This document shows positions 20,072 to 24,275 of a stretch of 64,000 bases of DNA, piece by piece. Under the pieces are notes generated by a model, which ran no database searches, had not been told where the DNA came from, and saw only the letters and a program-made list of their open reading frames with translations. The position numbers and the translations under genes were made by a program. Each line of letters starts with the position of its first letter. Within the stretch, counting starts at the first letter, position 1. This DNA comes from Sanghuangporus weigelae (taxonomy: Eukaryota > Basidiomycota > Agaricomycetes > Hymenochaetales > Hymenochaetaceae): assembly GCA_033182465.1 (NCBI GenBank), contig CP137322.1, positions 682,001 to 746,000 of the forward strand, given 5' to 3'.

Positions 20072-20735
20072 AGTGTCTAAAATAGGCGTATCGAGCCTCA
20101 GTCATCCTTTTCTCTGGCAAGTTCATTTTACTCTACTTTCGGCTCTCAACAATCTTTCTCTAAATTCTGCAGGTCTTGAGAGCTACTTATTTGTCTCTAT
20201 TTTTAAAGTTATATCCCGTCTGTACCAAACCTGTCGCTTGTAAAAAAAAAAATCACGAAATAAATTTTTGCACCACTGCAATCTGATATTCACACATCGC
20301 TCTACTGTACATATAACTTAGGTATGATGGATTACCTCCAAACCAGAACTCCATTGCCCCGACTAATCGTAACGACAAACGATCATCTACTGTATGCTAA
20401 CTACAAACTAAACCACCAGAGCGCTCACTGAACTACCCGTCTATGCACCTCATCAACCCGGAGGGAGAGATACATAACCAAAGCAATCCAGGAGCTGCAT
20501 CAAGCAGTAAAGAAGAAAGAAAGTAACAGAAGCGACGAAGTCATCAGAAAAGGCGGCAACAACAGAAGAATGGGAAGGAAGGAATCTATGAGTCGATGAG
20601 GAGATCACGTCCGAAAATATAATACGATACTAGAGAAACGAAATGGAGAGAGAACATGGATAAAAACCAGAGAATGAAATCCGAGAGGTACGTGGGAGGG
20701 GATACTTTTTATATGTATGAGTCGCCGAGCGTTCT
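20072..20735. other. Convergent 3' region between CHZ1 and HAC1
   Basis: No gene supported. This should contain the 3' UTRs of CHZ1 (plus) and HAC1 (minus). Fungal HAC1 3' UTRs can carry an element that docks the mRNA to Ire1, but I cannot identify one here. Confidence 0.35.
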
Positions 20736-21938
20736 TCAGAAGACACCAACACCAGATGATGTCGGCGCCAGGTCGGCATTCAACCCTCCGCACAGCTCGA
20801 GTCCCAAAGCTGTGCTTGCGTCCATCGCTTGGTTGTTCGCAGCGACGACGCCCCCATCGGACTGGACCGTCAAAAACAGGTCCAGAAGTCTCTGCATCTC
20901 CACTTCGTTTTCCCATTCAGTCGTGATCTCCGTCGACCCGATCAACGGCGCCGCGGAGGGGGTGGGCGCGGTGTATGGAACGTCCTGCCCTTCGCCAGAA
21001 GTATTAACCTCTGGCAAAGGCGACGACGCGTTGAGAGGGGAACCCGAGAAGATTTCCCGGATCCAGGCGTCCACATCTGCTTCGGCTGCTGGCGCAGGCG
21101 ACGGGAGGTCATAGAAGAGGGGAGTCGGTGCGAAGTCCGCCTCAGGGCCAGAAGCGGCTGGAGACGGGAACGCAGAACGAAGAGTCGTCGTGTCAAGTCC
21201 ACCCGCTGCAGGGGCATCGCGGGGGGGATTGCCGCGGTGCTCACCACCCGTGCTAGGTGGCAAGTGGACTCGGACTCATCTGCGTCAAGACTTATGCTCG
21301 CACCGGAGATGGATGGAGAGGGTGTGATAGGGAATACAGGCGTTGATGGAACTAAGACGGGAAAGGTGGTCGTGGTATTGTTAGTGTCGGACTGTGGAGG
21401 AGATTGTTCAGACATTGGAGTCGATTGAGCGGTGGGAACAGGAGTAGGGAGACCCTGGGCGGCGAGAACCTTCATTACGGCCTCCCATCCTTTCTCAAGA
21501 GACTTTATTCGTTCCTTGAGTTCTGCGTTCTCTCGCTCTCGCTCCTTCTCACGCTGCTGCTCTTGTGCACGTCTTGCATCTGCATACTGGAGGTCCGATA
21601 GTGTCATTCCAGCACGCAGTTGTTTGTTCTCCTCTTCCAGCTCAGCTACGCGACGCTCCAGAGTTGTGAACTGAACTTTCCGTCTGTCACGAGAGTTCTG
21701 AGCAGCGATGCGATCTAAATCATATCTCAGTAAACGACTAGTTGGCCATGCAACCGTAGATCCACCTACTTCGGTGTGCGCGGGCTTCTTTGCGCTCCTC
21801 TGCTGACATTTCGGTCCTCTGTCGCTTTCGCGGTGGGGCCGACGCAGTGTCTGAATGCGACGGATGTGGAGAGCTGGCCTCATCAGACTGCGGCGAGGGC
21901 AATGAGAGCGCTGAGGGGTTAACGGTGTTTGCGGACAT
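20736..21938 (-). CDS. HAC1: HAC1/XBP1-type bZIP transcription factor of the unfolded protein response
   Basis: A bZIP activator of ER-chaperone genes, normally produced only after Ire1 cuts its mRNA during ER stress. It starts MSANTVNPSALSLPSPQSDE (21938). A normal intron of about 60 bases splits the basic region and joins ...ERKEARAHR to NRIAAQNSRDRRKVQF. The leucine zipper follows: LERRVAELEEENKQLRAGM. The basic-region signature N-R-I-A-A-Q-N-S-R-D-R-R-K is that of basidiomycete Hac1/Cib1 factors. In the bZIP frame the gene stays open to a stop at 20942. A second frame on the same strand (open from about 21263 to 20736) encodes an acidic, hydrophobic C-terminus (DVDAWIREIF, EVEMQRLLDLFLTV) that looks like an activation domain. 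A frame switch between them is expected through an Ire1 intron ending at 21209. The coordinates given are for the spliced form. An in-frame upstream ATG exists at 22160. Confidence 0.85.
21201..21217 (-). promoter_or_regulatory. Ire1 3' cleavage hairpin in HAC1 mRNA
   Basis: In the mRNA sense this reads UGCCC-CUGCAGC-GGGUG: a seven-base loop CUGCAGC closed by five pairs (three C-G plus two G-U). The loop is identical to the known 3' cleavage loop of XBP1 and fits the Ire1 rule CNG/CNGN. Cutting after CUG (between 21209 and 21208) would place the downstream sequence in the activation-domain frame. Confidence 0.75.
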
Positions 21939-22647
21939 GACTGGCGTGTTTGTCGTTAACTGAGAAGGGGACGTGGTCGTACGTGGAAGAGAGAGCGCAA
22001 ACGAGAGTGAAGAGACTAAAAGGGACGGGACGAGAGAGGAGACGAGTGTAGACGTGGCGGTAGGTGTAAGAGTTATGTGGACACGTAGCAGTCTGATGTA
22101 ATCAGTCGGAGATCGAAATGCAACACTGCCCTCCGAGAAACGAAACTCTGAAGTAGGCATTATTACATGGCAAGCACGCTGTGATGTAGTATTTTAGCTC
22201 GAAAAAAGTAATTAGCATCAGCTTCGCCGAAATAATTTCGCTAGTTCACTCCGAGTCATTCCTTTTCATCACCGTCGTAGATATTTAAATAGTCGTAGTA
22301 AGGAGCTCAAGGGAGTCTAGATATTATATGGATCTTAGAGGTGGAAGGCATAGATCAAATTCGGTGGGGTTCTAAAAGACTGGATGCTTCAGATTGCTCA
22401 ATTGACAGCCCAGGACGGTCAGCTCTCTTTTCCCTCTAGATTAATATGCTTCTCCATTACAGACAATAAGAACTAAAAGATGCAATGTTGTTTTGTTTGA
22501 AGCAGAGCAGGAGAAGACTGTGATCCCAATATAGTGACTACCCCGATTTGGAAGACCGATTTTTTCCGTTTTTCTTTCTGTGATCGACGCGTGGTAGGCA
22601 TCTCTTACTTACAAAAGACGACTTCCGCTCTTTCATCTCTCGCAGCC
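21939..22647. promoter_or_regulatory. Divergent promoter region of HAC1 and PRMT1 with ACGTGG motifs
   Basis: This 709-bp stretch separates the two divergent start codons. Three ACGTGG sequences lie on the HAC1 side, at 21971-21976, 21981-21986 and 22052-22057. The first two are spaced by exactly ten bases, about one helical turn. ACGTGG is the core of bZIP/UPR-type elements, so HAC1 self-regulation is possible, but this is inference; the two nearest copies may lie in the leader. The PRMT1 side carries a pyrimidine-rich tract near 22559-22580. Confidence 0.4.

Positions 22648-24275
<1,628 letters not shown>

Follow-up and report, generated by a model that had tools for sequence, protein, structure and literature searches.

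Among the closest described systems, HXL1 of the basidiomycete Cryptococcus neoformans carries a 55-nt conventional intron and a 56-nt unconventional intron, and its C-terminus is switched by splicing (PMC3154848). As given there for the serotype B ortholog, the product changes from 406 aa to 426 aa on splicing, and homologs in Coprinopsis (CC1G_02249) and Laccaria (LACBIDRAFT_293210) are described as identified by BLAST (PMC3154848). In Ustilago maydis, the bZIP UPR regulator cib1 is described as activated by cytoplasmic Ire1 splicing (PMC10688622; PMC4836707). The Pycnoporus cinnabarinus genome paper reports Ire1 and the ligase, and no clear Hac1 (PMC4101180). The Ire1 rule is stated as CNG↓CNGN or CNG↓ANGN in a 7-nt loop (arrow, cut), and CUG↓CAGC in an XBP1 hairpin was cut in vitro by Ire1 of both S. 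cerevisiae and S. pombe (PMC6037481). A frame-switching Ire1 intron is already a known kind of switch. The unconventional intron is 65 nt long in cib1 and 26 nt long in animal XBP1.

We analyzed a 64,000-nt stretch of Sanghuangporus weigelae DNA (assembly GCA_033182465.1, contig CP137322.1, positions 682,001 to 746,000; hereafter the window, whose numbering is used throughout). Its minus strand carries a gene that we read, with a probability of about 0.8, as a HAC1/XBP1-type gene with an Ire1 intron whose 3' cut lies between 21209 and 21208, whatever its 5' site (Table 1). The points in favor of this reading are a bZIP domain, a switch of codon signal beside a hairpin, a loop that fits the Ire1 rule, an HXL1-like arrangement, and an acidic tail. 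An initial annotation had proposed the same type of gene, and the frame, codon, and hairpin evidence described below supports it.

Table 1. Positions of the features of the bZIP gene and of its putative Ire1 intron in the window
Feature	Position	Strand	Basis or remark
Exon 1	21770..21938	-	Translation MSANTV...EARAHRN, in frame with basic region; probable start, ATG 21938
Conventional GT-AG intron, 55 nt, GTAGGT...TTTAG	21715..21769	-	Interrupts basic region
bZIP basic region and start of leucine zipper	21608..21712	-	Pfam bZIP_2 E 4.4e-8, bZIP_1 E 1.2e-7
Exon 2, ending at the favored 5' Ire1 cut of the 62-nt model (after 21271)	21271..21714	-	Codon log-odds; putative end point
Putative Ire1 intron, 62-nt model	21209..21270	-	Codon signal, weak preference
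Alternative intron starts	21234 (26 nt), 21252 (44 nt), 21279 (71 nt), 21282 (74 nt)	-	Tail frame stays open
Overlapping 5' candidates ACG↓CAGA (74 nt) and CAG↓AUGA (71 nt)	21273..21289	-	Sequence and fold energy
Hairpin CCACC-UAGCACG-GGUGG, 44-nt candidate 5' site	21244..21260	-	-5.9 kcal/mol as written
Tandem GAGUCC GAGUCC	21266..21277	-	Sequence; at 62-nt cut
Predicted exon-exon helices around intron	21126..21305	-	Folds in 121-521-nt contexts
3' cleavage hairpin UGCCC-CUG↓CAGC-GGGUG	21200..21216	-	Cut between 21209 and 21208
Putative 3' exon frame read in the spliced mRNA (acidic hydrophobic tail)	20736..21208	-	Codon log-odds +26.2; stop 20738-20736
C-terminal extension of unspliced frame	20942..21208	-	Codon log-odds -4.3 over 21208-20942

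Excision of the 55-nt intron (21769-21715) restores AHRNRIAAQNSRDRRK, joining ...EARAHRN to RIAAQNSRDRRK...; an alternative in-frame ATG lies at 22160 on the minus strand. Both bZIP_2 and bZIP_1 exceeded the Pfam cut-offs. PDB matches of the bZIP frame were weak (ATF-2, E 0.033; CREB, E 0.079), and its four NCBIfam matches were all far under the cut-off. The basic region resembles the XBP1 segment NRVAAQTARDRKK, with 18 of 36 residues identical to this segment and 14 of 35 to ATF-2. Because this likeness to XBP1 is modest, the splicing anatomy carries more of the family assignment than the domain does. As in the description of HXL1, a 55-nt conventional intron lies upstream, a short unconventional intron would follow 3' of the bZIP region, and the C-terminus would be longer once spliced; however, in HXL1 the intron measures 56 nt, has CAG at each border, and has been proven to depend on Ire1, whereas the Ire1 intron here is putative, and the conventional intron, described as upstream of the bZIP domain in HXL1, falls inside the basic region here (PMC3154848). 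With cib1, the gene here would share the character of a basidiomycete bZIP UPR regulator activated by Ire1 splicing (PMC10688622; PMC4836707). S. cerevisiae HAC1 is also an Ire1-cut bZIP gene, but its intron is given as 252 nt (PMC3154848).

As the initial annotation had stated, the bZIP frame stays open to 20942 (stop at 20944-20942, minus strand), and a second frame is present on the same strand; we found the latter open from 21275 to 20736 (179 codons) rather than from about 21263. The tail that it encodes from the 3' cut holds 21 D+E and 3 K+R in 156 aa, whereas the extension of the unspliced frame is basic, arginine- and proline-rich (24 K+R and 1 D+E in 88 aa). The tail frame had no Pfam family at E 1 and no NCBIfam match. 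We scored codons with a model built from 14 long window ORFs picked by the analyst (4635 codons); these ORFs are not confirmed genes, and two of the nine that were scanned in Pfam matched. Over 21712-21284, the codon log-odds were +22.6 for the bZIP frame vs -8.6 for the tail frame, and over 21208-20736 they were -12.3 vs +26.2. The best single switch from the bZIP to the tail frame was at 21263, with a 2-log-unit interval of 21272-21258 and a 3-log-unit interval of 21275-21258.

A long open run is by itself no proof of coding, because off-frame runs reach 176 codons in the training ORFs. We therefore looked at leave-one-out windows of 156 codons, which scored +21.8 on average when in frame (n = 499, lowest -5.4) and -10.7 when off frame (n = 992, highest +9.8); just four of the 992 off-frame windows were free of stops, and all four scored below -21. 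By this measure, the tail resembles typical coding sequence and the unspliced extension does not, consistent with the proposed passage of the coding signal from one frame to the other. Removal of 26, 44, 62, 71, or 74 nt in each case opened the tail frame and changed the frame of the C-terminus.

The initial annotation had also proposed a 3' cleavage hairpin at 21201-21217. The hairpin is present, at 21216-21200 instead, and its 7-nt loop CUGCAGC is, as claimed, that of the animal XBP1 3' hairpin as printed in PMC6037481. It is flanked by three G-C and two G-U pairs. The minimum free energy (MFE) structure of the 17-mer had exactly this 7-nt loop (-4.5 kcal/mol; -3.4 kcal/mol for the full 5-bp form), and in that fold CUG↓CAGC agrees with CNG↓CNGN in a 7-nt hairpin loop; the 13-nt core alone favored a 6-nt loop. 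The human XBP1 3' hairpin is stronger, at -8.8 kcal/mol with the same program. Frame, codon, and hairpin evidence support a 3' cut between 21209 and 21208, which leads into the tail frame.

We asked how unusual such a hairpin is. CTGCAGC occurs nine times on the two strands of the window; two of the nine have at least four contiguous flanking pairs, and three G-C pairs are found only here. CNGCNGN occurs 494 times on both strands, with a stem of at least three contiguous pairs (at least two of them Watson-Crick) in 27 cases and of at least four contiguous pairs (at least three Watson-Crick) in nine, the 3' hairpin included. When the 250-nt region 21360-21111 was shuffled 2000 times, a CNGCNGN 7-nt loop on a contiguous stem with at least three Watson-Crick pairs arose in 65 cases. 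The hairpin alone is thus only moderately unusual, and what matters is its position at the frame switch. In larger folds, the 7-nt hairpin had a pair probability of 0.04-0.09, competing with a long helix, and the MFE structure at this site had a 6-nt loop and two pairs; this low predicted probability in longer contexts counts against the 3' site.

We infer the following course of events. The mRNA would first lose its normal 55-nt intron. Without ER stress, the bZIP region would be read on into the arginine- and proline-rich tail to give a product of 313 aa from ATG 21938. Under ER stress, Ire1 would cleave twice: within the CUG↓CAGC loop, after 21209, and farther upstream, after a G that holds codon position one. 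A tRNA-type ligase would rejoin the mRNA ends. The join would shift translation into the acidic, hydrophobic tail, which may act as an activation domain (361 aa with a 62-nt intron).

Given a 3' cut after 21209, the 5' cut has to fall behind the first base of a codon. Four G sites had been put forward in the initial annotation (26, 44, 62, and 74 nt), and their frame arithmetic is correct; we considered two further in-phase G sites, after 21280 (71 nt) and after 21304 (95 nt). At none of the six do letters that fit the rule coincide with a loop of 7 nt and a stem that is stable (the 95-nt site was judged by eye). We place the cut after 21271 (62 nt) first, with about one chance in three. The 62-nt model outscored the other five Ire1 models on codons by 1.4-2.9 log units and, when the training ORFs were resampled 300 times, ranked first among the six in 299, a figure that gauges training noise only; this codon preference is weak, as it rests on few codons. 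The 62-nt candidate is also the closest to the HXL1 intron in length. At the cut itself, CCG↓AGUC is off the rule with U at +3, and its GAGU/ACUU hairpin has an 8-nt loop and a predicted energy of +0.3 kcal/mol.

Alternatively, the Ire1 intron may be real with its 5' cut after 21280 (71 nt), 21283 (74 nt), or 21253 (44 nt), to which we jointly give somewhat less than an even chance. The 71-nt site, CAG↓AUGA, fits the CNG↓ANGN letters but needs an 8-nt loop with three pairs (-1.4 kcal/mol). At the 74-nt site, ACG↓CAGA, the appeal lies in G↓CAG, CAG being described as conserved at both HXL1 borders (PMC3154848), and the difficulty in an A at -3 and an unstable stem (+3.1 kcal/mol). The 44-nt site offers the most stable 5' hairpin among those tested (MFE -7.6 kcal/mol with a 5-nt loop), but its loop departs twice from the rule, with U in place of C at -3 and C in place of G at +3; the stable stem and the off-rule loop had both been noted before. 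On codons, each of these three lies 1.4-2.1 log units under the 62-nt model, a weak difference.

The preference of the initial annotation for a 26-nt intron fared less well. The loop letters CCGCGGC do fit the rule, but the stem, already called poor, proved to be no stem, with zero base pairs flanking the loop. This heptamer lies mostly inside another helix, 21236-21232/21222-21218, predicted with a mean pair probability of 0.90-0.93 in five of five fold contexts, and the codon score of the 26-nt model is ~2 log units under that of the 62-nt model. Nor is equality with the animal XBP1 intron a guide to length, given the 56 nt of the intron in HXL1, the precedent among basidiomycetes. The 95-nt site, CCG↓GUGC, was rejected: G at +1 breaks the rule, and its codon score was the lowest of the Ire1 models.

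We next consider the fold of the region. Helices between the exons were predicted at 21305-21297/21134-21126 (in three contexts of 241-521 nt), 21286-21279/21176-21169 (in four contexts of 171-521 nt), and 21277-21273/21186-21182 (in five of five contexts of 121-521 nt); in a further predicted helix, 21272-21264/21202-21194, the 3' exon pairs for the most part with the first bases of the 62-nt intron. Within the 3' exon, GUGGACUU (21202-21195) contains GGACUU, a possible pairing partner for either copy of the tandem GAGUCC. The predicted partner of GUGGACUU changes from the second copy in the unspliced fold to the first copy, across the junction, in the 62-nt spliced fold, where the junction lies within a zipped helix of the exons, a point in favor of 62 nt; long helices persist after 26-nt and 44-nt splicing too. 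This pairing resembles the zipper-like RNA structure of XBP1 mentioned in PMC6037481, a likeness that is suggestive only.

Overall, the fold of the intron region is unexceptional. A 241-nt segment gave z -2.62 (0 of 200 shuffles as low) and a 121-nt segment z -1.32 (21 of 200). Four 180-nt tiles spanning the 62-nt stretch ranged from z -0.8 to -2.2, and tiles further down the tail reached -3.7; among tiles of other ORFs, 4 of 116 had z <= -2.0. Pairing between the intron and an assumed 5' UTR (22140-21939), as in yeast HAC1, was not evident here: shuffles did as well in 59 of 300 cases for the 62-nt intron and in 13 of 300 for the 74-nt intron. Separately, we observed a predicted 14-bp hairpin, CCUUUGCCAGAGGU/ACUUCUGGCGAAGG, at 21020-20989 on the minus strand within the tail coding region; tiles around it fold more strongly (z to about -3.7) than the intron region.

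A more specific version of the 62-nt model, which we regard as doubtful, is that of an asymmetric Ire1 intron. A proper CNG↓CNGN hairpin would be found only at the 3' site, and the 5' cut CCG↓AGUC, which is the border between the two tandem GAGUCC copies, would be set by the exon-exon helix. After cleavage, the exon GAGUCC would displace the intron copy on GUGGACUU, zipping the exons together for ligation. If true, this would widen the known Ire1 substrate rule.

We also weighed readings in which Ire1 plays no part. An ordinary continuous bZIP frame could have been split by an indel from sequencing or assembly, such as one in the run of seven C at 21227-21221; we give this reading a small chance. 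An indel in the C run has a codon score of 52.2 vs 51.5 for the 62-nt model, and a free single switch at 21262-21263, as from an indel, reaches 56.5, 5 log units over the 62-nt model with the cost of choosing its position uncounted. However, the C run lies outside the 3-log-unit interval of the single switch, an indel would account neither for a CUGCAGC hairpin right there nor for the HXL1-like arrangement, and a sequence error within this very stretch would be rare a priori.

A spliceosomal intron linking the frames, such as GTGCGA...CAG at 21303-21206 (98 nt) or GTGAGC...GAG at 21244-21141 (104 nt), is unlikely and has a smaller chance still. In its favor, 55 GT-AG pairs 35-200 nt long bring the frames together in an open reading, and of the two examples the 98-nt one has CAG at its end and the 104-nt one a good donor. 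Against it, the codon scores of these two fall short of the 62-nt model by ~3.6 and ~9.4 log units, their GC is 64-67% vs 44% in intron 1, and their YTNAY sites are only at 79 and 52 nt, compared with 16 nt from the end in intron 1. CTRAY 10-50 nt from the end was found in none of the best 25 of the 55 pairs and in none of the 12 best of 40-100 nt, a test that is weak because intron 1 of the same gene fails it too. A good-looking 39-nt GT-AG intron, GTGAGC...CTGCAG at 21244-21206 on the minus strand, ends 3 nt past the Ire1 cut. It cannot link the frames, because its length is divisible by 3 and the bZIP frame is kept; it is probably too short for splicing and could mislead gene predictors.

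Returning to the HAC1/XBP1-type reading, searches with the 90 bZIP residues confirmed none of 221 stretches that fit the pattern in a genome-contig collection and none of 58 in a viral-contig collection. The DNA pattern of the basic region had no match in the viral-contig collection; its sole genome-contig match (L001, a cyanobacterial MAG) was set aside as chance by eye from the 401 bases read. Rfam gave three matches over 20400-22300, all unrelated and under the gathering scores. Ire1 introns in HAC1 genes of mushrooms went unmentioned in the titles and abstract beginnings listed from the open-licence literature. In basidiomycetes, HAC1 genes are divergent and readily overlooked, and the combination seen here, a bZIP region with RIAAQNSRDRRK, a 55-nt intron, and a CUGCAGC hairpin at a frame switch, may serve as a template in searches for the UPR factor of related fungi. 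In addition, the weakness of the 5' site makes it possible to test the Ire1 substrate rule in such fungi.

Two features flank the gene. Pumilio-like motifs, UGUAGUUA (20405-20398) and UGUACAGUA (20311-20303), lie on the minus strand in the likely 3' UTR; Puf4 reportedly has a controlling role in both the splicing and the decay of HXL1 in Cryptococcus (PMC10688622). On the other side, a divergently placed methyltransferase-like gene lies at 22857-23494 on the plus strand (Pfam PrmA, E 2.4e-6); by eye it is arginine methyltransferase-like, and it apparently has several exons.
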